64,000 nucleotides of DNA from Sipunculus nudus (taxonomy: Eukaryota; Annelida; Sipuncula; Golfingiida; Sipunculidae): the NCBI GenBank assembly GCA_026874595.1, contig CM049307.1:72828643-72892642 (forward strand). Direction: 5' to 3'. The notes beneath the pieces were generated by a model, which saw nothing but the letters and a program-made list of their open reading frames with translations, ran no database searches and had not been told where the DNA came from. The position numbers were made by a program, and so were the translations under genes. Below, one piece after another: positions 7,081-60,700 of this stretch; position 1 is the first letter of the stretch, and every line of letters begins with the position of its first letter.

Positions 7081-14681
<7,601 letters not shown>

Positions 14682-28585: not shown

Positions 28586-31500
28586 GTACATGGTTTACTT
28601 AATGATAAAGATTGTATTCAAGACAGTCTTCTAATCATTTTAAAATATCTTCCGGGAATGTGAATGTTATGATTACACATCTGACGATTACACCGTTAAT
28701 CCAGAATTTTATTTGTTGATACATGATTGACATATTATCGCTCAGCTGATCAACTAAACTTCACGTTTAAAGTTGTATTCAGTGAAACGAATGTAACACC
28801 AGTCACAGTTGTAAACACAAAGGAAACGGTGTGCCCACTGAATCAGATTTATATCGGAAACAGTACATGAACTAATGGAAACTCATAAGTATCAATTGTT
28901 ACTTCTTCCGGAGCAACTATAGAATCATTCACGCACTGACTTTAGACCCAGTTGTGGCTCTGTAGAGTATACAAAGCCACTGGTCATTTGCCTTCATTTA
29001 TCTAGCGGACGTAATGCATACAGGTGGTAGACGCAGCACTTGTTCTGAGTACATCTGATCCTGTGTGTTGGGTACCTGTCCATGTGAGCCGCCGAGCCGG
29101 CATGATTGTTTCAACCAGCGGTGTGCATATGTTCCATCGACACTGCCGTGAATGTACTAGTGACCGGACCACTAGCTAAACACACGATTGTTTCAGCCTG
29201 CGAGGTGCATGTATTACATTTCAGCTAGGTGGGCCAGGAGGTTAGCAGTGAAGATTTAACACATCTGTCTGAAACAATCATGCCGGCTCTCGAGGACACA
29301 TTCCCAACGCCAGAATCAGATGTACTCAAAACTAGTGCTGTATCTACCACTTGTATGCATTCTGTCCGCTAGATAAATGAAAGTAGTGACCTGTGGCTCT
29401 GGATATATACTACAGAGCCAGAACTGGAACTAGCACTGACTTGACAAGAACATAGAACATAGAACAAAAGTTTATTCAGGAAAAAAGGCCTCAGGCCCAA
29501 AGATCCAAACATTTCAACAATAATTTAATCAAATAATTGCATAAATAGAACAAAGTAGCAGTCTTATTATTAATTAATATATAATGTAACAAACTTGAAA
29601 CATGACTGCATACCTTAGTAGTATAGTACAAAATGTATCTATATTGCCATCAGTGAGTATGAAGCCCATACTTTAACCATCTATTATTCTTCCTCTCCTC
29701 AAAAAGGAATTAAATATATGCAGCAACATTTATTATTTCAATATGATTGTCTAAATTGAATAATTTAATAAAATTTTGTTCACCTGGGTAATATTTTATC
29801 ATCAAATCATTATATAATATACATTCTTGCATAAAGTGAGCTTCATCCTCAACAATATTGTATCTATGATGTAAACAATATATACAGATCCTCTCTACAC
29901 GAGATCTATCATTATGACAGCCTATTTCTATAGCCAATTCATGATTGGTGCATCAAAGTTTAGCAAGTGCTATGTGATGTTTCTTATTTGGAATACAATA
30001 TAAATAGTAAATAATTTTCAAGAGTTAGCATAGATTTGAAAGCACCTTAATAATATAATTTACTACACAACTCCATATCACTCTGCCAATTTTGAATAGC
30101 CATGTCTTTTATTCTAATTTCAAATTCTTTTAAAAAACTATTCACATCTCCAACATACTGTGCCATCCAAACATATAAAAAACCAGACTCAAATAGCAAT
30201 GTTCTTACATGAGATACCCAATTTGATTTACCAACTGATTTTCTCAACAGACTTGACAAGGTTATTAGTGAATAAGGAGGGACGATATGATGTTTCGAAG
30301 TCATGTAATGAAGAAGTAAGCAGCAGTTAGAAATCATGTAATGAAGAAGTAATAGGCAGATGTAATAAATGACGAAATCAAGATCCATGCAGTTGGATAT
30401 AAAAACATTTTCTGTTCACACAAGTGTTGGGCCTCTGGGAGGTGCGCAAGTTATTTTATAATCATGCCAAAATGCCCCCATTTGGCATTTGCTCACACCT
30501 GAAGTGTTTTTAAGGCGATTATTGCACTTTCTTTTTGGCTGTTTTTATATGCCCATCTTGGACAACGTATTCTGTTATACCCACCATCCATAAGTCCCTT
30601 AACTTTTGGCTTTTCCTTGATGACACAGCTTTGATGGATTTTCACCAAACTTGCTGAGTTGTATAACTACTTAACTTACCATTAGATTAACCTGCCTGAC
30701 TTTGAATCTAGGCAAGTCCACACATATTTAATTAGGTCAGAGTCAACAAGGCTCCTTTGTGAACTCTGTGATAAATATCAGGAAAATGATGGATTTTCAT
30801 GAAACTCAAAAATATTTACCAATAGAGTTTCTTTCCTGAAGTAAATTCTCCACAAAATCCATGCATATTTACTATTTGGTGAGATCAAAGATCACAAGAC
30901 ATGGCAGGCTTGATTATGTTTTCAGCTGAGATATTGCACACATAATGAGTGATTTTCAAATTAAACTGCTCGTTATTTTACAGTAAGTTTCCGTCTGCCA
31001 ATTTAACAAGTTGCTGTTTATGTTTGCAGACTGTCCTGGTACAGACAGCGATGCAGCAGGCAAGGCAGCAGCATGTCAAGGTTGTCCTAATCAAAACATC
31101 TGTGCTTCAGCACCCAAAGGCCCTGACCCAGGTGATCTTATGTTATATGTGATATTATATACATTTTTATAAAAGAAAACTGGGTATTTTTTTAATATTG
31201 CATGATTTTTTTTCTGCTAAGGTAAATTACCATTGAACCTTATGTGTTAGGCCAAATTAAAAAAAAAGTATGGTTGTCAGGCACTTTTTTCAGAAATCAA
31301 TGCGGTCGGGCAGTTTTTTTATTTTAATTTTTTTTATGTTTTGATAAAATTTTCAAATTACAAGGGAAAAACATCATAATAACAGTTTTAATTTGCTAAA
31401 CATGTATATGCACTACATAACAAAGGAAATTGTATAATTTTATCTTCTTGAAAGAAATGTCCGAGCGGCTGCAGCTCGATATTGGTAAGTTTCTATTGAA

Positions 31501-34500
31501 AATCAAAATAAAAATTTTTGATGTGGGGGTTTAAAATTGATGCGGGCGGTGCCTGAGAACCATACCTTTTATTTTTTTTGGCCTTACTCATAAACTTTCT
31601 GAAAGTGTGTATAGCCAAAATCATACTGTATGTAGTTCGCTTCATATTTGCTTGGTTAAAATTTTGCGATTATTGTTTCCCCTGGGTTTCATTTTTAGGG
31701 TTTTGCCGTATAACCTACACAGTGATTGTCCATTATTATTTAAACTTTTTATACTGACACAAAATCTTATCAATTCAATCAGGAGGAAACAGCATATCTA
31801 TTAAATGGACATTCTTGTTTATTATTGGCAGGTTGTATAAAAAAGATATGAAAATATTTATGTGATCTGTTTTGATTTAATAATCAGGTAACACAAAAGA
31901 TTATTTTTTTATTAATTATAGTCATTTTAAACTATCTATTGGCTTTCAACATTTTAAGTTATAGGTACAGATATTGTTCATGAAATGCCAATGTCTGTTC
32001 ACCTTGGCAGAAGAAACATCTTAGTCATGAAGGTTTTATTTTTATTATAATTCCTTTTCCTATATATCACAATGAACAAAAAGCTAACCACAATATATAA
32101 ACAAATGTATTATACATATTATACATACATATATTGTATATGCAGTATTTCATCTTTTTCTGGTGCCTCATATTAAACGACTTGATATATTTATGATTTA
32201 TCTTCACTTTTACAAAATAAGCTGGTGACCACAGACAAACAATCTTAAGGAGCCTCCTATAAAATCTTTATTTTATCAAAGTTTATGTCTGATACATTTT
32301 TGTTTTTAAACTGATGGATGTCTTTCATCTATTATAAGATTGGTTTGTCCTTTTCACATGTGTGACAGACAGTAGCCAGCGACTGTTGTGTGTGAATGTA
32401 AATTTGTCCATTTACATTTCAGATGTGGCAGATATTGGCCACTGATTGTCGTGTGTGAATGTAACTTTGTCTGGATACATTTCAGATGTGACAGATATCG
32501 GCCACTGATTGTCATGTATTAATGTTACTTTGTCTGGATACATTTCAGATGTGACAATTATCAGCCAGCAACTGTTGTGTGTAAATGTAACTTTTCTGGA
32601 TACATTTCAGATGTGACAGATATCAGCCAGCAATGGTTGTATGTGAATGTAACTTTGTCAGGATACATTTCAGATTTTACAGATATAGGCCAGTGACTGT
32701 CATGTGTGAATGTAACTTTGTCTGGATACATTTCAGATGTGACAGATATCGGCCAGTAACTGTCATGTGTGAATGTAACTTTGTCTTGATACATTTCAGG
32801 TGTGAAAGATATCAGCAAGCTTCTGTTGTGTGAATGTAACTTTGTCTGGATCATTTCAAATGTGACAGACAGTAGCCAGCGACTGTTGTGTGTGAATGTA
32901 ACTTTGTCTGGATTCATTTCAGATGTGACAGATATCGGCCAGCAACTGTTGTGTGTGAATGTAACTTTGTCTGGATACATTTTAGATGTGACAGATATCA
33001 GCCAGCGACTGTTGTGTGTGAATGTAACTTTGACTGGATACATTTCAAATGTGACAGATATCGGCCAGCAACTGTTGTGTGTGAATTTAACTTTGTCTGG
33101 ATACATTTCAGGTGTGACAGATATTGGTCAGCGACTGTTGTGTGTGAATGTAACTTTGTCTGTATACATTTCAGGTGTGACAGATATCGGCCAGCGACTG
33201 TTGTGTGTAAATGTAACTTTGTCTTTATACATTTAAGATGTGTCAGATATTGGCCAGTGACTTGTGTGTGAATGTAACTTTGTTTGGATACATTTCAGAT
33301 GTGACAGATATCGGCCAGCAACTGTCATGTGTGAAGCACAAGATCCTGGTGTTGTCAGGGAAGGGAGGAGTTGGCAAGAGCACCTTCACAGCTCATCTTG
33401 CTCACGGTCTGGCTCATGATGAGAACAAACAGGTCAGTCTGGTCAGAGGCAGCATTCACCATCTATATATTTATCAGGTTCTGAAGGTCCTTGAAAACAT
33501 GGAAAATCAAGGAAATTAAATATAATATTCAAGGCAGTGAATGTCATTGAAAGGATGTCATTGTTGCTGCATATATTTGTATCCTCCAAAACGAAGTTTT
33601 GCGGATACTATGTTTTTGACCGGGTTCCGCTGCCGCCGCCTCCGCTGCGTTCGTTTCCGGAGAACTCCTCTGAGACTACTGGACAGATTTTTCCGAAACT
33701 TACACAAATTATCAGGTCACATGTGAACTGGTGCCTAACCAAGTGACCTTGACCTCTGACCTTTCGTCTCTGCCCAGCGTCCATTTGTGCGTCTGTTTCA
33801 ACACATAAACCTATATATCTCGGGAACCGTTTGTCCGATCCGGAAAAAATTTTTACACAAATGTAGCCCTGGGATAGCTTTATAACATACACAACAAAAG
33901 GTGGCGCCACCTGCAACCATGTTTGCACAGTGTCCATCTGTTCATCTGCCTGGGGTTAAAATCACTCATATCTCTGCAGTGGTTTGACTAATTCACCTAA
34001 AATTCGGCATGCGTATACATCCTAGATAGCTTTCTCAATTTTATGACAGGTGGCGCCACCTACATTCACGTTAACGCTCCACACATAAACCCATATATCT
34101 CGGAAACCGTTTGACCGATCTGGAAAAAAATTTTTACACAAATGTAGCCCTGGGATAGCTTTATAACATACACAACAAAAGGTGGCGCCACCTGCAACCA
34201 TGTTTGCACAATGTCCATTTGTTCATCTGCCTGGGGTTAAAATCACTCATATCTCTGCAGTGGTTTGACTAATTCACCTAAAAATCGGCATGCATATACA
34301 TCCTAGATAGCTTTCTTGATTTATGACAGGTGGCGCCACCTACATTCACGTTAACACTCCACACATAAACCCATATATCTCGGGAACCGTTTGACCGATC
34401 TAGAAAAAAAATTTACGCAAATGTAGCCCTGGGATAGCTTTATAACATACACAACAAAAGGTGGCGCCACCTGCAACCATGTTTGCACAGTGTCCATTTG

Positions 34501-37500
34501 TTCATCTGCCTGGGGTTAAAATCACTCGCATCTCTGCAGTGGTTTGACTAATTCACCTAAAATTCGGCATGCGTATACATCCTAGATAGCTTTCTTGATT
34601 TTCTGACAGGTGGTGCCACCTACATTCACGTTAACACTGCAGACGTCCAAGCTCATATCTTGGGAACCGTTTGACCAATCAGGAAAAAGAATTTACACAA
34701 ATGTAGCCCTTGGATAGCTTTATAACATACACAAAAAATGGTGGCACCACCTGCAGCCATTTTTGCACAGCGTCCATCTGTTTGTCTGTCTTTGGTTAAA
34801 ATCACTCATATCTCTGCAGTGGTTTGACCAAATTACCTGAAATTCAGCATGCTTATACATCCCGCATAGCTTTCTTGATTTTATGACAGGTGGCGCCACC
34901 TACATTCACGTTCACGACGAGACATCCATGCTTATATCTCTAGACTCATTCAACCAATCAGGAAAATTTTTTTACACAAATGTAGCCCTTGGATAGCTTT
35001 ATAACATAAACAAAAATGGTTGCGCCACCTGCAGCCATTTTTGCACAGCGTCCATCTGTTTGTCTGCTGTTGGATAAAATCACTCATATCTCTGCAGTGG
35101 TTTGACTTTTCCACATGAAATTTTGCATGTGTTTATATCTTGGATAGTTTCTCATTCAAATAACAGGTGGTGCCACCTACAATCATGTTTATGTGGCAGA
35201 GATCCATTCTAATATTTAACACATGTAACTCTATATCCCCTTGCCACTCAATCCATGCCTCAATTCACTCGTCCTTCTCTGATTTTGGCGGATACACGTA
35301 GTCCCTTGTCGACTACCCGTCCGTATTCTAGTTTAATAACCATTATATTTTACAAACTTAGTTTTGTTCTGAATAAAATAAAACCTCTTGAAGTGTCACA
35401 CATCCATTTGAATCTTGAGTGATTGTCTGATGTGTATAAAACATTTTTGTCTTGATGATCTCACCAAGTGAAGTGAGAACATCAAAACTGTTTGGTAAAT
35501 GTTTCTCCTAAAACTTTTGGATATTGTTTAGTGATGCTCAGATTGTATTTAAACATCCCACATTAAATATTATCCATAACTGATTTTAAACCTCCAGATC
35601 ATACTGATTTATATGTCCAATATGCTGTATATTCTTTGCTAATCACAACATGATCAGGTTGTTCAGCTGTTGTATGTTACATTCCTAATTGCCCGAGTTG
35701 TTACTTTACAGATAGCTGTGTTAGACATAGACATCTGTGGTCCTTCAATACCAAGAGTCATGGGATGTGACGGAGAACAAGTGAGTTTAAGTTTAGATAC
35801 AATTGATATAATCAATATTGTTAAGTCCTCATGTTATTATTGCATTGTAAAACTAACTTTTACAGATTTTCTTTTTCCAGTTTACACAAATCATGGAAAC
35901 ATAACCCTTAAAGTGTAATTTGCAGTCACCTCTCACTGTAAATCTAAACAAAAGATGTTAATTGTCGTACAGGTATGATTAGGGCCCCATTTGAATAAGT
36001 GGGTGCCCTATAGTAATCACCCTATTAGTCTGTCTGTCTGTCCGTCTGTCCACAAATTCATTTCCGGATGATAACTAAAGGAAGACCCCTATTGATTTTG
36101 GGATCATGAAGTCAAAGGTCAAAGCCACATGACCCACATCTTTGAAAAGTTGTTGATGCATTTTAAGCCAAACTTTTCATCCCAGACCTTCCATTTTGCA
36201 TATATAGCATACCTGCCAATTGGTTAAGATCTCTATCAATTTTTTGCATCACAAGGTCTAAGCTCAAGGTTGCAGGCACCATCTGTCCACATATTCATTT
36301 CTGGATGATAAGTCCAGTTGAGGTTGATATATGGATTTCAAACTGGGCTTATTTATGGGTCGACACTGAAGCAAGAACCCTTTTAATTATGGGGTCATGA
36401 GGTCAAAAGTCAAGGCCACAGGACCAACATCTTTAGTAAGAATGTGGATGCATTTTAAGCCAAACTTTTCATCCTGCCCCTTCCGTCTTGCACGTATAGC
36501 TCGCCTGCAGATATGGGAGAGATCCATTACGATTTTGGGAATTCAACATCAGAGTTCAAGGTCACAGGAGCCATCCCTCCAGACATTTGTTTCAATGGAT
36601 TGGATTTCAAACTTGACTTATATATGGCCAACCACTAAAGCAAGAACCTTTTTGACATTTGGTTCATGAGGTCAAAGGTCAAGGTCACTTGACCCACATC
36701 TTCAAAAAGATTGTGGAGTCATTGTAAAGGTTTCATCCAAAATCTTTCACTTTTGGAGTACCTAACAATAGGGGAAGAGCCACATTGATTTCAACATCAC
36801 AAGTTCATCACAGGACCATCCTACTGATTTATATGTTGACCAGGCTTACAGTTTAATACATCAGATGTAAATCATGTAATTATGCCTCTGTTGCTTGGGA
36901 TGCTCCACGCCAAACACCTTAATACATGACTTTCACTGAATCAAAACTAACATCTTGGTTCAGATATTTAAATATTGTTTTGGGTCAGTTTCCTCGGTCT
37001 CTGCAGTCCTTTGTTGTATTTTTTTTTCAAGCATCACTCAGCCTGCACTGGAAGTATATGGGCCTTTAGTGGGCCCTTTCTGACCTGTCAGTATTCTAGT
37101 TATTTGTAATCTTGTAAAAACTAATATAAGGGCATGTTTGTGTCCGTCACTGTCTGAAATGTGTGAACAATTATTTTATTAACTTACTGACTAGATTCAT
37201 GGTCCACAGTACCCTAAGTAATAGCAGATGTTATTGGCTCACCATATCAATTCATTGAAAAGGCTCTTCCACAGTAACGTTATGTCACTAAAGGGACATG
37301 TCTCTGTAATGTGGAATCTCAACTACTTAGTGGAAAGAAATGATGACACTGGCCTAAAATAAAACTTGTTGTCAAATTTAATGTTATTTTTACAGTGTAT
37401 GAAATTTGATGCCCTATAATACATGTCTGTATAACATCAGATAAATTTTTTTGCCTTGTATATTAACCTTGGCGTGGTAACGTTGAACCCTTACTGTATT

Positions 37501-40500
37501 GTTCCACAGTTTTCTGCCATTCATTAAGTTTGCCATTCGTTCCTTCTTAAACACATTGTATTTTCACAGGTTCATCAGAGTGGGTCTGGCTGGTCTCCAG
37601 TAGTAAGTAGACATCTCACTTTTTCATACTTGTAATGTTCTTCTACAAAATATATATCTCCGGTTATTAGATTTTTTTTTTATACAGTATTTAATTTTAT
37701 TTGCATTTTAAACCACATTCAGTGCTGCTTTTTAAAAAAATTTTTAAGGTTTACACACAAAAAGCTAGGAAGTAGGTAAATGGCCATCACTGGTATTGCA
37801 TCAGAGGACAGGCTTTAATCTGTGTCAGCAAAATTATTGCACCTTGATTTATTGTGTTTAATAACAGAAGTTACTGTGAGTGCAGGTTGAAATGGCTAGC
37901 GCAGGGATATTGTGAGCTAACGTTAACAATAACAGATTCAGTGAGATGAAAAGATGATAATTAAAAGTAGATAATATTTTTGTCAGTATCTGTGGACTGT
38001 ACAAAGAAAACCTGTACAGAGATGCCTTGAGAGACTGTTGCAGATGTTCAGTTATTTTATTCTTTTGTTTGATGACAGTATGTAGAAGACAACTTAGCGG
38101 TGATGTCCGTCGGCTTTTTGTTAGCAAGTCCTGATGATGCTGTGATTTGGCGAGGACCCAAGAAGAATGGTTTGTGTTTATTTTCTGCTCCAACCTGAAC
38201 CCCACTGGAGTGATATGCTGTGTTTATAAGCCTAATAGAGAAGTTTGTAGTCTTGGAAAAAAAAAGTTTCACCAAGGAAACAAGAGTCCCTCTGTCCGTC
38301 CGTCTGTTAATCAGGCACAAACCGTAACCGATGTTCCTGGAATCTTCTTGCTTGACATCCAAAGAGGTCAATGAAAAACCGCCATGGAAACCTGAAATTA
38401 GGTCTCTGTTACCCAAAATTTCTGAGCTATGGGATTTCGAAGTAATCCCCAGAATAATGGAAAATTTAATACAAAAGCTCAAGTATCTAAACAACTATTG
38501 CATTGATTACCATGATTCTATGCATGGATATTGGTCATGGAATGTTTCATTAGTTTCTGCAGACTGTTGGGACCACCTGTATTTTTTTTTTTTTTTTAAC
38601 AATTTTTTTTTCTTCTGTTTTGAGACCTTTAAAGATGTGTTCATCTGTTAACAGGGCACAAATCGTAATCACTGGACCTAGAATCTTTCAACTTGACATC
38701 CTTGAAGGCCCATGAAAAGTCTCTAAGGAAACCCGAAATTAGGTATCTGTTACTCATATCCTACGAGCTATGGTGCTCCTAAGTACCCCCTAGAATAATG
38801 CAAAATTTAATACAAAAGCTCAGTTATCTGAACAACTATTGCATTTATCACCATGATTCTTTGCATGGATATTGATCATGGAGTGTTTCATCAGTTTCTG
38901 TAGATTGGTGGTGCCACCTGTATTTTTGTTATTTTTTTACGATTCTTTTCCTTTTATTTTTGAGACCTTAGTGGGTGCCTCCATCTGTTAACAGGGCACA
39001 AATTGTAACAACTGGACCTAGAATCATCTATCTTGACATGCAGGGAGGCCCATGAAAAGACTCTTTGGAAACTTAAAATTAGGTCTCTGTTACCCAAAAC
39101 CTATGAGCTATGGGGCTTCGAAGTACCCCCCCCAGAATAATTGAAAATTTGATACAAAAGCTCAGATATCTAAACAACTAATGCATTGATCACCATGATT
39201 CTTTGCATGGACATTGGTCATGGAATGTTTCATCAGTTTCTGCAGACTGTTGGCGCCACCTCTATTGTTTTTTTATTTTTTTACAACTTTTTCTCTGTTT
39301 TGAGACCTTTAAAGATGTGTTCATATATCTTTTAATAGGGCACAAATCATAATCACTGGACCTAGAATCTTTCAACTTGATTCCTGGAAGGCCCATGAAA
39401 AGTCTCCAAGGAAACCCGTAATTAGGTCTCTGTTACCCAAAACCTCTGAGCTATGGGATTTCTAAGTAATCCCCAGAATAATGGAAAATTTAATACAAAA
39501 GCTCAAGTATCTGAACAACTAATGCATTGATCACCATTATTCTTTGTATGGATATTGACCATTAATTGTTTTTATTAGTTTCTGCAGACTGGTCGAGCCA
39601 CTTGTATTTTTTTTAAAGTTTACGCATTTTTTACGCATTTACTTGAAATTAGGTCTCTGTTACCCATATCCTTCGAGCTGTGGGGCACCAATTACCCCCC
39701 AGAATAATGAAAATTTTGATAAAAACAAACTGTAACATCTCAATAACTACAAAACTTATGGTCTTGATTTGCGGCATACATATTGATCATGAGATGTTCC
39801 ATCAGTTCTTGCAGACTGGTGGGGCCACCTGTAATTTTTTATTTTTTACGAATATTTTTGTCTAATTTTGAGACCTTTAAAAATGTGAACATCTGTTAAC
39901 AGGGCACAGATTTTATGGACTGGACCTAGAATCTTCATTCTTGACACAGTGAGAGACCTATGAAAAGTCTCCATGGAAACTAGAAATTAGGTCTCTGTTA
40001 CCCATATCCTTCGAGCTATGGGGCCCCAAAGTACACCCCAGAATAGTAAAAAATTTCATACAAAAACTTCAATATCTCATTAACTACATCACTGATGGTC
40101 ATGATTTTTGGCAAACTTATTGATCATGAGATGTTTCATCAGTTTCTGCACACTGGTGGCGCCACCTGTATTTTTCGATTCTTTACGAATTGTTTTCTCT
40201 GTTTTTGAGGTCTTTAAAAATGTGAACATCTGTTAACAGGGCACAAATCGTTAAGACTCGACCTAGAATCTTCATTCTTGACACATTGAGAGACCTATGT
40301 TAAGTCTCCATGGAAACCTGAAATAAGGTCTCTGTTTCCCAAATCCTTTGAGCTGTGGGGCTCCCAATTACCCCCCCCCCCCCCCCAAACTGCAACATCT
40401 CAATAACTACAACACTGATGGTCATGATTTTCGGCATACATATTGATCAAGAGGTGATACATCAGTTTCTGCAGACTGGTGGCGCCATGTGTATTTTTCG

Positions 40501-43500
40501 TTTACTTACGAATAGTTTTCTCTATTTTTGAGACCTTTAAAAATGTGAACATCTGTTAACAGGGCACAAATCGTAAAGACTGGACCTAGAATCTTCATTC
40601 TTGACACAGTGAGAGACCTATGAAAAGTCTCCATGGAAACCTGAAATTAGGTCTCTGTTACCCATATCCTTTGGGCTATGGCACTCCAAAGTACAGCTCA
40701 CAATAATGGAAGATTTCATACAAAACTGAAGTATCTGAACAACTAATGCAGAGATCACCATAATTGTTTGCATGGATATTCATCATGGAGTGTTTCATCA
40801 GTTTCTGCAGACTGGTGGCACCACCTGTATTTGTTCAGCTTTTTTAACGAATTTTTTTCTCTATTTTTGAGTCCTTTAAAGATATGAATATCTGTTAACA
40901 GGGCCCAAATCATAACAACTTGACCTAGAATCTTCATTCTTGACACACAGGGAGACCCATGAAAAGCCTCCATGGAAACCTGAAATTAGGTCTCTGTTAC
41001 CCATATCCTTAAAGCTGTATGGCTCCAAAATACCCCCCATAATAATGAAAAATTTGATACAAAAACTGCAGTATCTCAATATCTACAACACTGATGGTCA
41101 TGATTTTTGGCATACATATTGATCATGAGGTGTTCCATCAGTTTCTGCAGACTGTGTGTGCCACCTCTATTTTTTTTCAAATTTTTACGAATTTTTTTCT
41201 CTATTTTTGAGACCTTTAAAGAATAGGTTATCTGTCAACAGGGTACAAATCGTAATAACTGGACCTAGAATCTTTATTCTTGTCATGCAAGGAGGCCCAT
41301 GAAAAGTGTCTGTGGAAATTAGGTCTCTGTTTCCCATATCCTTCAAGCTATAGGACTCCGAAGTATCCTTCAGAATAATGGACATTTTGATACAAAAGCT
41401 GAAGTATCTAAACAACTAATGCAGAGATCACCATGATTCTTTGCATGGATATTGAATATGGAGTGTTTCTTCAGTTTCTGGAGTCTGGTGGTGCCACCTA
41501 TATTTTATTCAATTTTTCGAATTTTTTCCTCTATTTTTGAGATCTTTAAGGATGCTTCCATCTGTTAACGTGGCACAAATTGTAACAACTGGACCTAGAA
41601 TCTTCATTCTTGTCATGCAAGGAGGCCCATGAAAAGCGTCTGTGGAAACCTGAAATTAGGTCTCTGTTACCCGTATCCTTTAAGCTATAGGACTCCGAAG
41701 TATCCCTCATAATAATGGAAAATTTGATACAAAAGCTGAAGTATCTAAACAACTAATGCAGAGATCACCATGATTCTTTGCATGCATATTGACCATTTAG
41801 TCTTTTTATCAGTTTCTGCAGACTGGTGGAGCCACCTGTATTTTTTACGCATTTTTTTTTCTTTTTTTGAGATATATAAATACAGACACAATCTTGGCCT
41901 GTTGGTTAATCTGTTTGATGCTTCAGTTGAATGAGTATATACTACCATTCAGATGATAAAATTTCCTTTTGCGAATCTCTTCCCATTCAGCTGAGCGTTC
42001 AGACCCATGGGTCACTTGTTAATATTAACCACAATCCTGGTTACGTACAGGTAAACACATTGTACATAGTCTTGAGGCCACATTGGGCTTAGTCCTGAGG
42101 ACACACTGTACAAAACCTCAGTACTCACTGTACATAGTCCTGAGGACACATTGTACATAGTCCTGAGACCTAAGTACACATTGGGCATAGTCCTCAGGAC
42201 ACATTGGGCATAGTCCTTAGGAAACATTGGGCATAGTCCTTAGGATAAATTGGGCATAGTCCTCAGGACACATTAGGCATAGTCCTCGGGACACATTAGG
42301 CATAGTCCTCAGGACACATTAGGCATAGTCCTCAGGACACATTGTTCATAGTCCTTAACACAATGGTTTTTTTAACATCTGTGGCATATAAAAGATTACA
42401 AGAGATACACAGATTGGTATAAGAATCATTATTATTTTTCTAGGTTTGATTAAACAGTTTCTACGTGATGTGGACTGGGGAGATGTGGACTACTTGGTGA
42501 TTGACACTCCCCCAGGCACATCTGACGAGCACCTGTCGGTCAACCAGTACCTCAAGGAAACTAATGTAGATGGCGCTGTCATCATCACCACTCCACAGGT
42601 CAGCTTTTTTTTTCAATTTGTTTCCCCCTCCTTTAAATAACCCAGTGAGTATTAAAGTATACTTACAACAGAGATTTTATCTAATAATTTTGTTTTGTTT
42701 TGTGATACTGCTGCCAGAAATGCATTAAATGTCAAAAATAAATTCAGGAATGTTGCAATGGATAGGTGTGTCTGGAAATTAAATCTGTTATCTTTGCTTA
42801 AAATAATTTTTTTTTTACCACTGTCACTCTAATTGGTCTTGTATGGTAAATTGATAAAGACACTAAAGTGTCTTTTATCCAAATAGCTCAGAGGGACAAG
42901 GCTTTTGATTGGATAAATGATCATTCGTATAAACGATTTTGCATGAGAATCCACCAGGATTGACCAAGATTGCTATTCTGCCAGAGAGTACCAGATGTTA
43001 TCAGAAACGGACAAACTCAACTTCATAAAACTGGGCCATACAAAAGTGGTGAATGTAATCAATATATCATGTTACATAATTAATATTAAAGCTGGGTGGA
43101 TCAGTCTTTGTGGTACTAAATTTATGTAATGCATGGATGCTGTGATGACATGTCGCGACCTAGAAAATGGACAAGAAGAACTTAGAAGTAAATGAAAAGT
43201 TGAATATAAAACCAGTTCACAAAAGAATGCCAACAAAAGTGAATTTAAAATGATTTCATTGTTGTTTCAATGGACTTCTTTAACACAGTCGATTGTTTCC
43301 ATTTTGGATAAACCATCAAATTTTCCCTTTAGGCAAAAAATTTTCAGATATTAAAATAGTGTTAGGAAAAACAATGTTCTAACTGTTACTGTCTGTTTTA
43401 AGTTGTAGCTCTTGTGGTGATGTTAATGTTTTCTGAACTCAACTTAAACCAGTGACCTGTGTTTGCTCTAACCTTAAGTCCCTATTAAGTGCTTGCCGTT

Positions 43501-46500: not shown

Positions 46501-49500
46501 TTAGATTTTATTGGGAAGAAGCACATAAAAAGAACATATCCAAAATATCCTGACTGATACATCCTAGTTTTAAAATGTCCTAGTCAGAAACTTGCAGGTC
46601 CGAAACATCCATTTTGCTGAAATCATGATGACTAAGGAAGATATGCAGGACAAAAGAGGATCAATATTAAATGTTAAAAATAAACCTCCATTCATACTCC
46701 CAAACTTTGCACAGGTTTGCATTAGGCCAGTAGGCCTTGTTTTAATAAAAGATCGTTTCAATATTCTAAATGCTGAAAGTTCAAGGATAATAAGTTCTCA
46801 GTTTTATTACGTAAACATAATTGTGAGCTGTTTCTGTATTAATGAGAATTTTCTCTGTTAAAGTTTATAGGCCAGAGTAAGCCAACCGAAAATTTTCCCT
46901 TATTGGGCCTATTATCGCCCATCCCGCCTCGTTCCCGTGTATCTAGGTCACACTTCCATTTCCTGGAAACACATTTTTCTTCTGGCGTCAGCCATGATGG
47001 ACGTGTGATCACGCTCTGCGCGATTCGTCCACTGTTTTGGTTTGTACAGTCAGGTTTGCCAACTGAATTGTAAGTAGTGATTCTTTTTCCCTTCCCGCCA
47101 TGGTGACCCCTTTACTGTTCTTCTTGTGGTTAATCCCCACTTGGGATTCTCACCCCACTTGTTTCACCTGTCGTTCACACAATGACATCTGCCGGGGCCC
47201 TGCAGATCCCTGCTTCTTTTGTCAGCCATGGTCGTCTGACAAATGGGCCATGTTCCATGCCTGGTCCCATTCCCCGGTTGTAGGGGTTCCCCGTACACGG
47301 TGACCTTATCTGGTCCTGTTGGTCCCACGGGGGGGGGGGGGGGGGGATCCTACCATGGGTGGACGCAACACGTCCCTGTTACGTTCCCCATCCAAATTAA
47401 CCTGTGAAGTTACTTACCCGGTAGTTCTACTGCTACATATCTTCCTATTATTTTCACCCCCTTCGGCCCCAGTCCGCTTATACCATTTTGAGTAAACTCT
47501 CACGTTTTTGTCTCTTCCATGGTGTCGAATCTAGACGATTCGTCTAGACCCGCGTCTGTGTGCCCGGTTGCCTCTCCTACCCGGTTCTCTGTCTTTGACC
47601 GCTGCCCTCCCTGCCGGCCCCCCGCCGGCTTCCTTCCTTGTTTCCGGAGCCGGCTGTTGCTGTCATGCTGGATTCCTCGGGGCTTCATAGAGCTGAGGTA
47701 GGTAATTCGGGCCCTCCTGCTTCCACTTTCTTTCAGCCGCCCTCGCTTCCTGTGATTCCTGCTGCTCCAGCAGGCTGCTCTGTGATCCTTAGCCGGCCGG
47801 CCACCGCTTTGTTTCAGACTACGGCTGCTGTTCCGCGTGAGGGCCTGGTTCCTGATTACACTAATCTCCTCGCTGTCTCCACGGATCTGCCACACTCAAT
47901 GATATCTGTCAAGTGTCAGCCCATGTCTGTGCTGAACACCAGCAGGTTACTTGGCATATTGTAGATATTGTATTTTACTGCGCCTCTTGGCCTGTATCCA
48001 TTCATTACGTACCTTGAAACCCGAACTCCGGCTGATTTGGCTGCGCTTTCCGCTCAACTTTTTCTGGGGTATCTTCTGTTTGGCGGCCACCTTTTGCCCC
48101 TCTTAGCCCGTACATTGGATCGTTCTGACCAACCCGCCAGCTCCCGTTCCGCAACTCCTCCTCCGCGCCAGTCTTACCACCTTCCATGGTCGCAGCCTTC
48201 CTGTACGGGCCTCTCATCGGCTCGTCAGGTCCACGCTCCGTCGTCCTGTCCTTCCGGCCGTACCAATCATGCACAGCCATTCACGGTCGTTCCTCGCGCC
48301 GCGGTTCGACCCAGAAATGACTTATTTGGTCCAGTTGGCACTCGTCTAAGCGACCTATTTTCCTGCTTGGGCGAGCATGACGTCACCTCGTTTAATTTTC
48401 AGCACAATCACGTTCGGGTTCAGTTTTACGTTTTTGCCCGATCCTCCAGTCACCCTGCAACTGTTCTACCCTCAGCCTTACACCGATCCGATCAAACGTC
48501 TCGCGTTTGCAGAGGCCATTCAGTCTCTGCTCGAGATGAGGGCGATTCTCGAGGTTCCCCCTTCCACCCTGAGATTTTACTCTCGTCTTTTGCTGGTTCC
48601 GACACCGCACGGACGGGGGCGCCGATTATTGATCTCAAGCGTCTCTTGTCAGTCATTACCTCGCCGTCCTTTCGCATGTTCATTATTCATGAGGTTCTCC
48701 GCATTATCAGTCGGAGGGATTGGGCACTCTAACTTAGTCCTTCCGGATGCTTATTGTCACGTTCCGTTCCATCCGTCGTCCCTACCGTTTCTTCGATTCG
48801 CCTTCCAGAACCGCGTGTTTATATTACGTGTCCTTCCGTTCGGGATCAATGTGGGCCCTGGACTTTTCCGCTGCAGAGAATAGCGAAGTTGTCCCCACGG
48901 TCACTTGTTCCCTCCGCTCCCAGGGCCTATCTGTGCTCCCTTTCCTAGATGATTGGCTTATCCATGCGGCCGATCGCTCTCTTCTACTGGCACACCTCTC
49001 CCCGGTTCTCGATTCCTCAGGAACCTTGGCTTTCTTGTCTATACAGTGATGTCCCAGCTCCCTCCCACCCCGTCCTTACGGTTTCTGGGTGTGACTCTCG
49101 ATTTTGCGTCAGGGACTGCGTCTCTACTGCGCGCATTTGCTCTCAAGCTCAGGACGCAGATTCGTTCCTTTCTTGTGTCTCGCCGTATCGATTCTCGTGC
49201 CACTGCTTCTCCTCACGGCCCTCTCAACTGGGCCGCCGATTCGTTCCGTTCGGCCGGTTATATCTCTGTCCGGTTCCGTCTCTCCTGCGCGCTCACGGCC
49301 TTCTCCCTCTCCATTCGGTTCGTCCTGTGGTCCTCCTGTATCCACATACGTGGCGGACCTTTCGCCCCTGACTTGACCTTTCATTCTCCTTCAGGAAGTT
49401 CCTTTCTCTCAGGGGATCGATTGTCTGGTATTTCCCGACACATCTCTCCTCGGTTGGGGTGCCCATATGGCCGATCTCTGCGCCTCGGGGATATGGTCCC

Positions 49501-52500
49501 CGTCGGAACGTCTGCTGCATATCAATATCCTGGAACTGCGTGCCGTACGTCGTGAGATCTCCCGCTGGTCCCCCCCCTTGATCGGCTGTCACATTCTCGT
49601 CCGGACAGACAACACCACGGTCGTGGTGTATATCCACAGGCAGGGCGGTCCTCGGTCTCCCTCACTGATGCAGGAGACCTACCTTTTGTTCGATCTATGC
49701 ATCTCTCTCCGCGCCTCGATTCGTGCGTCGCCTCTTCCGGGCGTGTCGAACATTTTTGCCGACGCCCTTTCCCGTCGCCCTGCGTCTCCTTCTCCACCAG
49801 TGCTCCTTTCGCTCCCGGTTGTTTGGTGTATTTTTGCTCGCCTGGGGCGTCCGGAATTCGATCTGTTCGCTTTTCCGTCCCCCCCCCCGTTCTCGAGCAT
49901 CCGCGCCGCGTCTCCGTCATGACCGTCTCCCCGACACCCCACCGTCCGTGTGGTCTCACCGGTTTCTCTTGCGTTTCCGGTGCCTCATCTCATCCGCCGT
50001 GTCCTTCTCCGCTTGGCCTGCGCGGACAGGATGGGTCTACTTCTCATCCTACCGTTTCATCCTGCGGCTCCCTGATTTCCTCTGTGGCACTCGCTTCTCT
50101 CTCGGCCCCCTCTTTATCTACCGCTCCGGATTGTTCTCCCATCGTTCCCACGGGCCCGTCGCCCATTTCGGTCGTGCCCTCTGTGCGCATGCATACTCTC
50201 CTCGGACACCTCATGGATTAGGGCATTTCCAGTCCGGCTGCTCTCCTTGCCTCGGCTCCCCGTCGCAGTGCTTCGGACCGCATCTATGACTCCCGGTGGC
50301 GTCTCTTCACCGGTTGGGCATCTGCCCGCGGAATCTCTCCTTTAGATCCGTCGCTTGCGGCAGTTTTTGGATTTTTCGTGTTTTTACTGCAGGATAACCA
50401 TTTATCCTATCTGTCTCTGCGTGGCTATCATGCCGCCCTGCTGTCCGTGCTCCGTCCGCTCGGTCACGCTCGTGTCCATCCTCCTTGCTATTACTTCTGC
50501 TGGTCACCGCTCTGAGCTTCATGCCCTGGTGGCCGACTTGCCATTTCCACTCCCTTGCGGCAGACGTTGCTTCGACCACCTTACCTTTCCTTCCGGACTT
50601 TATCTGAAGTACCGTTGCTCCTGGATCCTCCGTTAACCTGGCACGTTCCAGCCCTTCCTCACTGCCAGTACCGTTACGGGGCTCACGTTTGCCCTGTTCA
50701 TGCTTTCCGTTACTCTCTTCAAGCTACTCATTCTCCAAGGGGGGGGGGGGGGGCGCAAGAAGTTGTTTATTTCAGCGAAAGTCACTACATCAAACAAAGA
50801 AATTAACCCTATCTCCATTAGTGCCTGGCTAAAAGCTACCATTGTCTCAGCATATGAATCTGCTTATCAGTCATCATTGGAGCAGCTTCACGTCAAGGCT
50901 TATGACGTCAGGGCCATTTCTCCGTCTTTGGCCCCTTTATTGGGGATTTCCCCGAACCCACTGGTCAGGAAAGGCTCTTGGATATCACCTTCTACCTTCC
51001 CCGCTTCTATCTGTCGGATGTCATGTTACAGGCTTCGGTCCCTTATTCCTTGGGCCCTGTGATTTCGGCGGGTGAGGTCCTACAGTTCTTCAGACCGTCC
51101 TCGACTCCTCCATCTGTTCCGGCGCCGACGTCTTCGTCTGCTTCCTCACTGCTGTGATGTTCTCCTCTTTCGGTCGTTCCTGGTAGGTATCCCCTCCCCA
51201 AGGTATATCTGTTATATTCTCATTAATACAGAAACAGCTCACAATTATGTTTACGTAATAAAACCCCCCCATTCCCTCCCTGTGAATGGTGGTTTTGTTA
51301 GTAAACTGTTGTGAGCTTTTCTGTATTACAAACCACGCTCCCTCCCAGTCCACTTCCTTCCGCCTTCGAAAAATGTGATTACAGGAAACGGAAGTGTGAC
51401 CTAGATACACGGGAACGAGGCGGGATGGGCAATAATAGGCCCAATAAGGGAAAATTTTCGGTTGGCTTACTCTGGCGTATAAACTTTAACAGAGAAAATT
51501 CTCATTAACACAGAAAAGCTCACAACAGTTTACTAACAAAACCACCATTCACAGGGAGGGAATTGGGGGGATTTTTTGGTCACAAGGTCATTCAGGTCAC
51601 AGGGCCATTATTCTGAAAAATTTCTTTAAAAATATCCTTATAGACTATTTCAGCTGATTGTCGAGACCCCTTGGTCCCTAGTTAATTACATAACAATTCA
51701 GAAATACTTGTAGGCAAGTCATAGAAGAGAGACAGGAGAGGCTGATTATCACTGATACAGTGCTTTCTGTTATTGCATCAGCCAGAAGGGTTTGCATTCA
51801 TCCCCTTGTGTGTGTGTGTTTGTTTCACAACATAATTCACACAGTCATGGATGAAATCTCATGAAATTTTCAGGGCATTTCAAGAATAGGCCAGTGAAGA
51901 ATCTGTTTGATTTTGGTGTGGATCTCGCACATTATCAGCAAACAGGAATGTCATCAGTGAATTTTCACAAAATTTACAGTTAACTTTGCAAAAATTATGC
52001 TTCCGGAGGCAGCAGAAATCATGCCCTTCTAAAAAAGCAACTGATTTTCCTGCTGCCTGCTATAACTGTTTCTGATACACTTACACACCAGGTTGCAGGT
52101 CGTGGTCTGCTGAAAACGTGGGTATGATGTGACAAGCAGCAAACCAGATACCAATTAACAAACACTCAACATTCATCCTGGTTCCGCCCATAGCTGCGCT
52201 TCAAGCGCCACTTGATGACAGTTTTATGGTTACACTTAGTAAAGAACAGTCAAATTTTAATTATTCCCTCTGCATTGTCACATCATCGACCATTTTGATT
52301 ATGACATTATGACTATGGTAGCGTAGCCATGTATATGTTGTCTGCAAAACTGAAACCAGCCAGGGAGATGTGCACTGAGCCTTTGTTGTTACATTTCGTT
52401 TGAATTATAGCTCACTGGCCAGGCATCCTATGTGCCCAAGGCCCTAAGCAAACCACGTGTAGGGCCATTCTCTCTAAGCCTGTGGCCTGTTCAAATGGTT

Positions 52501-54716
52501 TCCGGGGCGATGAGCAGTCACTCAAAACGAAATGAACAACATTGGCTCCTTGTAGTCCAAGCTTGGCAGGTAAACTGATTGCATATAGAGCTCGTCTTCC
52601 AACACAGGGTCTCATCTGATTGGAATAAAATACAGTGCTCTCCTCTGATGTAGCGATTCAGGATACGAGGTCAAAACAAACAGCACTTACGATATAGGTA
52701 GTAGGGCTATAGGTAAAGTGCTGTGTAAAGAGAGTATGCAAGAATCAACCTGGGAAAATGGGCTGTTTAAGTGAATGCAAACAGATTCGGGAACATCCCA
52801 CAATAGGGTCCCCAACATGGCGGAGGCTTGCATTCCTTAGAATAGAGATTTGTAGTTATTATTGTTATAATGAGATATTTTCTGTTGGCAGGAGGTGGCC
52901 TTGCTTGATGTAAGAAAGGAGATAAGCTTCTGCAGGAAGGTTCAGCTCCCCATCATAGGAGTGGTAGAAAATATGAGTGGGTTTGTTTGTCCAAAATGTA
53001 AGGTATGTATACTGTATGTACTTATGGACAGTATTTATGAATTATATCACAGTAACATCACATTTCTGTCTCATTTGTTATGGTTTAATTGGTGAATTAT
53101 TTTTGGGATGCAAGCAGGACACCTAGTTTAGAAGTATAACATTTATATTACTAAAAGTTCATTGCCTTTATGTAAACATAATGGTTAATCAGAATCACTC
53201 AAATTTAATAAAAAGCTGCATCTTCATATAGATACACCTGTAAGAGAACTAAGGTGATATATGATTTGACATATTTGCTATAATGTTCATGTGTCATGTA
53301 TAAAGGTTGGCATCCAGAACTACTTCATTTTGCTGAATTCACAGAGGTAAAAGATGTTGCATATTTATTCATTTCTAATATTCTTTTATCCTAAACCAAA
53401 GTAGCTCTGTGGGCAGTTTGGTAAGGATACATTGAAAGTTAATTGAGATATCACTTTTAAATTGAAAATAAAGTGCATGGATTTGTCAGAAATGAATTAA
53501 GGGTAATCCGTAAAGCAGTAAACTATTTTCAAAGACCATACATAATTAAATAGGAAATTGTTCATACATTGAGCAGTGTTAATGTACACATTTACCTATT
53601 TACAGAATGAGTCACAAATCTTCCCACCAACAACAGGAGGGGCAGAAAAGATGTGCCAAGATCTGAACGTTCCGTTCCTTGGAAAGCTTCCACTTGACCC
53701 AAGAATAGGTAGGCTTACATCAGACCTCACAAGATGTGGCCTCTCGGTCAGCCTAACCAAATATGGACTCTCAGCAGACCTCAAAAATTATTGGCTTACA
53801 GTACACCTCCAAAAGCATAGGTTTAGCTGAGGACAGCTGAGGGGTGAAACACTTGGCTTTTTCAGCTGGCCACCCAGGTTCGATCCCGAGGGTGGCCATT
53901 AGAGTGGGTTGTAGTGACGTCCACGGCCAGTGGTTTTTCTCCAGGTTCTCCGGTTTCCTCCACCTCAAGACACTACCGTACACCACGGAGCCATGGAGAT
54001 TTATAGTTAAAACTCATAAATATGGGTTTATAGTAAGGTCCATAAAATACAGGCTTAAAGGATACCCTAGATATAGTTATGGTAGTCTTAACACATTTGC
54101 TGCCAATGACGTGTATACCCGTCGTTTATTATGATTCCCCCAGTGCCAAGCATGTGTATACACGTCATTTATTTATAAGCCATTTTCAGCAGGAATTCTC
54201 GTAAATTTTTCAATAAATTCTTTGCAGATGAGTAGTAGTACATTTATAAACTAGTCTCGCAGTATAAAAATGAATTATTTGTTATTCAACAGTGCGCTGC
54301 ATCATTCTAAAGCAGAAAGATGTGTAGATGGTGACATAATCCACGGCTCCTGTCCATTGCCGTGAAATAACTTTACGACGCGCTTCAGTTTGAAGTCGAT
54401 TCCTTGTAAGAATACTACTTTGAATCAAACGAAAAGGAGAATTGTAAAAACATGTAGCTGGTCTTATATTAAAACATGTTTTGGCCACTTATTCACAACA
54501 AACCCGGTTGGGAGGCCGAGGTGTAATAGATCGCACTTTAGGTGTGAACTCAAGATAGCCAGGCGTGAGGTCGTTCAGGTTTATTGCCCCACGAGGACAG
54601 GGTATTGCGCAATCAACAACAAAGGGCGCGTGCCACATGATTGACACACAGTTCGGCAGTGTAATCAGAACGCGGCTGCAAATGGTTCTTTCGGCTTATT
54701 TCTTGTTCCTTATTTA

Positions 54717-57700: not shown

Positions 57701-60700
57701 TCTAAATGATGGGTAATTACTGACCACTTAAATCTGGTGTAATTACTTGGCAACCAATGGGTGAATAACTTTGACCTGCAACCTTTAACCTGCTGACCAG
57801 CTGACCCCAAAATCAATAAGTTATTTATTCAAGCAAAAAGACCCATAAATATGAAGTTTGAGTCAAACTGAGGGATGCATAGATGTGGCATATGTGAAAG
57901 ACTGAAGGTTTGGGTTGAACAGTTACACTTGAAATATGCTCACAAGCATTTAGAACAATTAAATATTGTGACCTTGCCCTTTGACTTTTTGACCTCAACA
58001 TCAATAGGCTTCTTTCCTTATTGGTAGGTAAGCCATATATGACAGATAAAAGGTACAGATTGAAAAGTTTGCCTGAAAATGACTCCACGCAAGAAGTGGG
58101 TGCTGTGAACTTGACCTTTGACCTCAGAATCAACAGGTCTTTTCCCCTGTTGGCAGAGAAGCGATATCAGTGCTGGAAGGTTTGGAATGAAAAGTCTAGC
58201 TTGGAATGTGTCCACTACCTTTTCAAAGAAGTGGATCCTGTGACCCTGACCTTTGACCTTGTGACCTCAAAATCTATAGGATTCTTCTCCAACTTAGTAG
58301 GTGAGCTATATGTGAAAGATCAAAGAATTGGGATGAAAGGGTTGGCTTAAAATGCATCCACAGGCTTTTCAAAGAGGAGGCTACTGTGACCTTGACCTTG
58401 GACCTTTTGACCTAAAAAAAATTATGGTTCTTCCCCTGTTGGTAGGTGAGCTGTATGTGAAAGATGGAAGGTTTGGGATGAAAATTTTGTCTCAAAGAGT
58501 TATTTCTGGGGGGTGCAAACACACCCCTTAACTTCCAGAATATAGGTCGCAGTGACCTTATTTCAGGTTTGCAAGGAGATCTTTTTATAACCTCTAAGAC
58601 TGCATAGGGTTCATGGCCCTAGCCCCTACGGTTACGATTTATGCCCTGCTAACAGACGGACGGCCGGCCGGACAGACAGACGGAAGGACGCCGGACAAAG
58701 ACCCATCGCTTTAGCCCAGCATGACTGAAAGTCAGCTGAGCTAAAAACATTGTAGCCAATTGAAAAAGGCTTTCTGTATTTGAAAACAGATTTGACAACT
58801 TGCTGAGTTTCAGCATCCAAGTCAAGAGGTCACTCAGTACAAACAGGTGGGGGTCCAGACATTACCATGGCAACTGATCTGGCTCGGGGGGGGGGGGGGG
58901 GGGACAGTCTAGACAATGTGTCTAGACGTCTAGACACAGCGTATAGACGTCTAGACACAATGTTTAGATGCAGAATTCCCAGATTATTGGAACTATATCT
59001 TTCAACTGTTTGAAAAAACTTGGTTAGCATTTTAAGCGAAATGGGTTTATCATCAGGTCACATGTGAAGTGCTGCGCCCTCATTTTTGGTTGACCTCTGA
59101 CCTTTCCTCGCTGCCCTGCTTCCATTTATGCGTCTGTTTCCACAAATAAACCCCCATATCTCGGGAACAGTTTGACTGATAAGATCAAATGTAGCCCTTT
59201 GATAGCTTTATAACAAACACTAAAAATTGTGGCGCCACCTGCAACCACTTATGCACAGCATCCATCTGTTTATCTGCCTTGGGATAAAATCACTCATATC
59301 TCAGCAGTGGTTTGACTTATCCACCTGAAATTTTGCAGGTTAATACATCCTGGACAGCTTTTTAGATCTATGACAGGTAGCACCACCTACATTCATGTTT
59401 ACTCTGCAGACATCCAAGCTCATATCTCCGGAACCGTTTGACCAATTGGGCCAAAATTTTGCATGTATATAGATCTCACATAGCTTTTCATCATAGGCAA
59501 AACTGGTGGCGCCACTTGCAACTTACCACTTGCACAGCTTCCATCTGTTCATCTGCCTTGGGATGATATTACTTATATCTCAGCATTGGTTTGACTTTTC
59601 CACCTGAAATTTTGCAGGTTTATACATCCTGGACAGCTTTCTCTATTTTATGGCAGGTGGTGCTACCTACATTCAGGTTTACTCTGCAGACATCCAAGCT
59701 TATATCTCAGGAACCGTTTGACCGATTGGGCAAAAGTTTTGCATGTGTATAGATCTCACATAGCTCATTATATGCAAAACTAGTTGCGCCACCTGCAACC
59801 ATTTTTGCACAGCGTCCATCTGTTCATCTGCCTTGGGATAATATTACTTATATCTCAGCAGTGGGTCGACTTTTCCACCTGAAATTTGGCAGGTTTATAC
59901 ATCCTGGACAGCTTTCTTGATTTTGTGACAGGTGACCCACCTACATTCAGGTTTACTCTGCAGACATCCAAGCTCATATCTCGGGAACTGTTTGACCCAT
60001 TGGACCAAAATTTTGCATGTCATTAGATCTCACATAGCTCTTTTTCATAGGCAAAACTGGTGGCGCCACCTGCAACCATTTATGCACAGCATCCATCTGT
60101 TCATCTGCCTTGGCGTAAAATCACTCATATCTCAGCAGTGGTTTGACTTATCCACCTGAAATTTTGCAGGTTTATACATCCTGGAAAGCTTCATTGATTT
60201 TATGTCCGGTGGCGCCCCCAACTTCAGGTTAACTCTGCAGACATCAAAGCTCATATCTCGGAAACCGTTTGACCGATTGGGCCAAAATTTTGCTTGTGTA
60301 TAGATCTTACACAGCTCTTCATCATAGGTCCAGCATTTGAAGCATTATACCTGGTGTAATCTCATTGCACAGGTTCGCATTAGGCCTGTAGGCCTTGTTA
60401 AAATTTAATATTGATCCTTTTAAGTCCTGCATATCTACCTTAGTCATTATGATTTAAGCAAAATGGGCATTTCAGACCTGCTAGTTTCAGACTAGGACAT
60501 TTTAAAACTAGAGTATGGGTAGTCGACAAGCGACTGTGTATCCGCAGAAATCAGAGTGGGACGGGTGAAGTGAGGCATGGATTAAGTGGCAAGGGGAATA
60601 TAGTGAGGTGTGTTGCATATTAGCATGGATGTCTGCAGCGTAAATGTGAATGTAGGTGGTGCCACCTGTCATAAAATCGAGAAAATTGTCCAGGATGTAT

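Follow-up and report, generated by a model that had tools for sequence, protein, structure and literature searches.

A 63-bp minisatellite built from the intron 2/exon 3 junction of a NUBP1-type gene in Sipunculus nudus

The window analyzed here is a stretch of 64,000 nucleotides from the Sipunculus nudus assembly GCA_026874595.1 (contig CM049307.1, positions 72,828,643 to 72,892,642 of the forward strand), and coordinates given without a locus or contig name are positions within it. On its plus strand lies a gene in which exons 3, 4, 5, 6 and 7 match the ParA/Mrp-type P-loop domain PF10609 above the cut-off and exon 8 matches it below the cut-off (Table 1). When joined, exons 2–8 encode 255 amino acids with no stop. 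Exon 2 carries in frame a cysteine cluster (DCPG...) and joins exon 3 in phase 1; an N-terminal cluster of this kind is, we take it, the feature that separates NUBP1 from NUBP2. The PF10609 exons, the alignments to PDB entries and the open frame support a host gene of the NUBP1/Nbp35 type, in agreement with the gene named in the original prediction, which had been made from the letters of the window. In the PDB search exon 3 aligned without gaps to archaeal Mrp/ApbC-type proteins from about its third residue and to CFD1 from about its eighth. That the start of the exon can be aligned with these proteins supports an ancestral exon from which the array described below was derived, and not the reverse. 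Elsewhere in the window, GC content measured in 2-kb steps rises to as much as 0.565 across 47000–51000, a block whose open frames are long and overlap one another and which may be a mobile element.

Table 1. Predicted features of the NUBP1-type gene, its junction array and a second junction array in the window.
Feature	Position	Strand	Basis or detail
Tektin donor array	12144..12435	-	49-bp copies of 8 exon nt, GTAAGT and intron; TRF (repeat 12144-12386), Pfam
NUBP1 exon 2	31030..31131	+	Cys-rich N-terminus, phase-1 donor GTGATC; without a Pfam match of its own
63-bp minisatellite, NUBP1 exon 3 start plus intron 2 end	32361..33335	+	TRF, alignment, genome search
14 upstream acceptor copies	32421..33237	+	AG kept in 12/14, lost at 32860 and 33049; first exon-like bases of copies 1-7: 32423, 32486, 32549, 32611, 32674, 32737, 32800; of copies 8-14: 32860, 32923, 32986, 33049, 33112, 33175, 33238
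In-frame TAA	33234..33236	+	ends the predicted products of seven positions: 32800, 32860, 32923, 32986, 33049, 33112, 33175
In-frame TGA	33258..33260	+	ends the predicted product of acceptor 33238; inside the 61-bp frame-shifting last unit
Authentic intron 2 3' splice site, as indicated by the open frame	33273..33298	+	TGTAAC (inferred branch region), pyrimidine-rich stretch, ATTTCAG
NUBP1 exon 3	33299..33432	+	P-loop GKGGVGKST, donor GTCAGT; Pfam PF10609, PDB alignments
NUBP1 exon 4	35712..35780	+	PF10609; edges and open frame
NUBP1 exon 5	38079..38169	+	PF10609; edges and open frame
NUBP1 exon 6	42444..42598	+	PF10609; PDB match to CFD1; edges and open frame
NUBP1 exon 7	52892..53002	+	PF10609; edges and open frame
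NUBP1 exon 8, 3' edge approximate	53606..53707	+	PF10609 weak, below cut-off; open frame

The end of intron 2 is occupied by a tandem array with a period of 63 bp, 15.6 copies and 85% matches (TRF). Each unit is comprised of 37 nt resembling the start of exon 3 (33299–33335) followed by 26 nt resembling the end of intron 2 (TGTAACTTTGTCTGGATACATTTCAG), and the unit consensus differs from the real exon start at three of the 37 positions. The acceptor at 33298 forms the end of the last unit, placing the array directly beside the authentic junction. Fifteen copies of the exon start are found upstream of the real acceptor; the 5'-most of them has no preceding acceptor, which leaves 14 upstream acceptor copies. 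Thus, the fifteen acceptor-plus-exon copies originally predicted, each with about 30 nt of exon 3, are correct as to the number of exon starts and their inclusion in the unit, but the exon part is 37 nt long and only 14 acceptors, 12 of them with AG, accompany it. The acceptor dinucleotides of the 14 copies lie in the contexts CAG (ten copies), TAG (one), AAG (one) and CAA (two), and an exact ACATTTCAG is present in nine. Acceptor-to-acceptor steps are 63 bp in 11 of 14 cases and 62, 60 and 61 bp in the remaining three, so that two steps (62 and 61 bp) change the frame.

The units are similar but none are identical: among 15 units the mean pairwise identity is 0.846 and the maximum 0.97. Identity to the consensus is lowest in the 5' edge unit (0.828) and reaches its highest values, 0.95–0.97, in units 32923–33049; it is 0.841 in the inner unit at 32800 and 0.905 in the 3' edge unit. 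Compared over 34 nt, the copies at 32486 and at 32737 are each one base away from the real acceptor, and five further copies are two bases away. A BLAST search with 33236–33432 against the whole 1.43-Gb assembly, in which only the best candidates were scored and very common words were skipped, returned 15 matches, all within the array; the 14 non-self matches had E values of 1.6e-30 to 2.4e-14. A dispersed satellite or mobile unit was rejected on this basis, and the predicted origin of the array from NUBP1's own intron 2/exon 3 junction is upheld, as the unit matches this locus only. No Rfam family was found in the window at gathering score, and the predicted RNA fold over 33049–33432 showed nothing unusual (z 0.46).

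To describe the outcome of splicing to the copies, we joined exon 2 to the 14 upstream positions in turn and followed each predicted product as far as the donor of exon 3. All 14 contain an in-frame premature stop, located 174–989 nt before that donor. For the first six positions (32423–32737) the stops fall at 32443–32757, within or shortly after the unit concerned, and the other eight products end at the TAA and TGA listed in Table 1. An open reading frame results at just one of the 15 acceptor positions, 33299, which is joined to the exon body. The period of 63 bp, equal to 21 codons, is as had been predicted, and the consensus unit is open over these codons in the exon frame. The proposed insertion of 21-residue repeats through an upstream acceptor is contradicted, however, since a stop in 14 of 14 products means that this allele does not make such insertions, and protein repeats of this length were accordingly rejected for it. 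The accompanying forecast that upstream products would be truncated or frameshifted agrees with the stops in all 14. Its explanation, a TAA near 33234 and one 61-bp step, is right about the TAA but incomplete: a TGA at 33258 also ends a product, two steps change the frame and the stops come in addition to them, which led us to reject the single-frameshift account.

The uniformly unproductive outcome does not need selection to explain it. Simulating neutral change, with substitutions and indels as numerous as those observed, left all 14 products unproductive in 35% of 4000 runs. Stops internal to the unit occur in six of 14 units compared to 2.8 expected (P 0.043). This excess could reflect selection against readable products, and decay of a CpG at a CGA codon may give the same excess; the four CpG columns show 5–6 changes each among the 15 units.

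Substitution patterns were examined for other traces of selection. The 43 distinct substitutions fall into synonymous, nonsynonymous and stop classes near expectation in all three frames (counts compared without a formal test), with 14, 26 and 3 in the exon frame versus 12.2, 28.7 and 2.1 expected, and selection for the coding frame was rejected in view of these classes. Retention of AG in 12 of 14 upstream acceptors compares with 11.6 expected. Singletons are not unevenly placed between the exon and intron parts of the unit (20 versus 14, p 1.0). When all changes are counted the exon part has 63 and the intron part 21 (p 0.003), an excess that is driven partly by shared variants and CpG columns; with these columns removed, the deficit in the intron part loses significance (p 0.12, or 0.056 when the edge unit is also removed). 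The 19 columns of the branch-site and AG core contain 10 changes versus 25.3 expected (p 0.002) and 9 distinct changes versus 14.8 expected (p 0.02), and exclusion of CpG columns gives p values of 0.013 (all) and 0.043 (distinct). When the comparison is confined to the intron part and leaves out the edge unit, p for the core rises to 0.11 and 0.24. When the core column set was slid round the unit, the true placement ranked third of 63, two of the 62 others being as cold or colder. The units share ancestry, which makes the p values for the core too small, and its coldness is a weak hint of possible constraint.

Two further junction arrays were found in the genome, both repeating a donor. The first lies on the minus strand of the window in a tektin gene (Table 1), where four distal copies read GGC/GTAAGT and one reads TTAAGT. 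Adding the exon at 12428–12498 extended the Pfam tektin match from profile position 122 to 146, and the copy adjoining this exon was taken as the real donor. The second is in a myosin-head gene (locus L061, 523–1522), where the end of the exon and the donor recur in a 36-bp array; 27 donor-like copies are present including one at the exon, 24 with CAG/GTCAGT and 3 with CTG/GTCAGT, and again the copy adjoining the exon was taken as the real donor. In both arrays, reading on in frame from the exon meets a stop within a few codons.

By self-BLAST, junction copies are present at three of 44 exons, or two of 43 when the NUBP1 index case is left out, in a survey of 12 window exons (two positive), 30 of the 75 myosin-head matches (one positive) and two other P-loop exons (none positive); arrays may have been missed, as the search reached 1.5 kb from each exon (5 kb in the window) and the myosin edges are the ends of profile matches. 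At two of the 30 myosin loci TRF detected a repeat no more than 60 bp from the match; one of them, L059 (22 bp x 2, AT-rich), has no exon copy. Tandem repeats are dense: TRF recorded 19 rows, overlapping ones included, with three or more copies and a period of 10 or more in 104 kb. The window together with its two flanks accounts for 84 kb of this length, and the random genome sample beside those flanks consists of two stretches. Some of the other arrays are also close to NUBP1. A 23-bp x 12.8 array (42055–42355) ends about 90 bp upstream of exon 6 and has no copies of exon bases. Arrays with units of 277–339 bp occupy 33801–35189, 40060–41844 and 59222–60317, the first two inside NUBP1 introns, and at least some of them share GGTGGCGCCACCTG-like motifs. 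A 61-bp x 40 array (L032, 3577–5985) ends some 4 kb before the window begins.

Repeats spanning an exon-intron boundary have already been described, in the available text of two papers, as amphioxus 'mirage' minisatellites (PMC3087553, PMC3902484). Their units measure about 10–160 bp, and they are found in the globin genes BflGb6 and BflGb9 and in Adh3; regular splicing is reported there to be undisturbed, on RT-PCR for the globins and on data for Adh3 (PMC3087553). The portion of the second paper available to us likewise states that the Adh and TnC mirages yield no aberrant mRNAs, and likens repeats of PGBD5 to them (PMC3902484). In PMC7960049, as far as its accessible text goes, 'mirage' is the name of a transposon class. 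The NUBP1 array has four features of mirage anatomy: a unit of minisatellite size, a content of its own gene's exon and intron across the boundary, adjacency to the authentic junction and partial retention of splice signals, which in the mirages as described also persist in many but not all units (AG in 12 of 14 at NUBP1). Like BflGb6, it is on the acceptor side. Mirages are also marked by strongly diverged edge units and homogenized inner ones; at NUBP1 the 5' edge unit and units 32923–33049 follow this pattern, and the inner unit at 32800 and the 3' edge unit depart from it. Its unit identity averages 85% where 81–100% is given for amphioxus, and its 15.6 copies compare with 6 and 3 given for BflGb6. 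It differs from the amphioxus arrays in belonging to another gene and another genome, of 1.43 Gb. The amphioxus genome is about 0.5 Gb. As mirages of this kind are reported in the sources at hand only from amphioxus (PMC3087553, PMC3902484), their recurrence here suggests a process that is not peculiar to cephalochordates.

Two human systems are related, as far as the accessible parts of the papers on them describe. In the IFI6 (6-16) minisatellite, downstream repeat units are used as donors (PMC4526556). As at NUBP1, a tandem repeat there offers many copies of a splice site, although on the donor side. Units of the IFI6 minisatellite are about 12 bp long, and its multiple splice donors were reportedly described by Turri et al. 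in 1995. Variable internal tandem repeats in human segmental duplications lie in some cases at exon-intron boundaries and may make novel introns (PMC2812944). They resemble the NUBP1 array as minisatellites able to change gene structure and, unlike it, belong to recent paralogues (PMC2812944).

Collectively, the NUBP1 array is very probably a neutral or near-neutral minisatellite of the mirage type, with position 33299 expected to make essentially all productive mRNA and upstream leakage to be removed by NMD. In origin, 63 bp of sequence lying across the boundary of intron 2 and exon 3 would have been duplicated in tandem and expanded into the intron, bringing with it the branch-point region, the polypyrimidine stretch, the AG and the first 37 nt of the exon. 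The spliceosome would mostly choose 33299, because this site opens a normal-sized exon (134 nt) with a downstream donor, and use of any of the 12 AG-keeping upstream acceptors would give an mRNA with a premature stop, destined for NMD. The near-identity of the real acceptor to its copies over 34 nt means that local sequence hardly explains why 33299 should be chosen. Exon definition, through where this site lies with respect to the donor downstream, and NMD of the remaining products would likely account for it. In a reporter study, as seen in its available part, the first of duplicated consensus donors was used and two consensus acceptors showed no order preference (PMC6783452). The rule that the last site wins is thus not guaranteed, and some upstream leakage is plausible. 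We propose that the array persists because its cost is low and not because it is needed. Given two more junction arrays and dense tandem arrays in this genome, an array seeded at a junction needs no special function.

The original prediction had left the choice between a neutral array and a copy-number modulator. The evidence agrees better with the former, and none of it calls for a regulatory role. As a modulator the array would be a ladder of poison acceptors that compete with 33299 and send a copy-number-dependent share of pre-mRNA to NMD, and would thereby adjust how much of an Fe-S assembly factor is made. Twelve upstream acceptors with AG, including a pair that each differ from the real site by a single base, premature stops in every predicted product, the slightly cold acceptor core and the lack of positional preference between acceptors in the reporter, in the part of that study available (PMC6783452), are consistent with such a ladder. 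It is nevertheless unlikely, as AG retention is at the neutral expectation, the all-unproductive outcome arises in 35% of neutral runs and the amphioxus mirages, in the sources cited, are reported not to disturb regular splicing (PMC3087553, PMC3902484). The broader claim that junction mirages are widespread in this genome (three of 44 exons) and that those on the acceptor side are copy-number-tunable poison ladders is quite unlikely; if it were true, near-identical acceptors would compete, all but the last would lead to NMD and array length would set the dose of productive mRNA.

Very unlikely is a role of the array as a seed for intron gain or sliding, in which the exon part of a unit would become a new exon. 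Each unit has an acceptor-like site, the consensus contains a weak donor-like GTAACT and the available text on the amphioxus globin mirages proposes this model (PMC3087553), but including a pseudo-exon, at about 38 nt, would not preserve the frame, and the start of exon 3 looks ancestral. An assembly error or collapse would be a more improbable explanation again. Tandem arrays are prone to such errors and the true array may have some units more or fewer; the array is, however, shorter than 1 kb, two other junction arrays exist in the genome and no two units are identical (maximum 0.97), which argues against simple duplication in assembly. Finally, the chance that upstream acceptors of this allele add 21-residue repeats to NUBP1 as a coding minisatellite is virtually nil: the 21-codon consensus unit has no stop in the exon frame, but in-frame stops follow all 14 acceptor positions, two steps change the frame and synonymous changes (14 versus 12.2 expected) show no clear excess.

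With the near-neutral mirage reading preferred, the NUBP1 locus is a natural experiment on splice-site choice, in which acceptors almost identical over 34 nt differ mainly in position. Together with the tektin and myosin donor arrays, this acceptor array would test in real genes the rules of donor and acceptor order drawn from the accessible part of the reporter study (PMC6783452). Two observations were made on other loci. Neighboring partial myosin-head matches at C2:44845229-44856291 cover approximately the same part of the profile (109–153), as in an alternative-exon cluster. At loci L009–L021 and L025–L031, on contigs C60–C124 of up to 3.3 Mb, COX1 and ParA-family genes are unbroken and occur as several similar copies, and these contigs look as if they were bacterial genomes, from symbionts or contamination, assembled with the animal.
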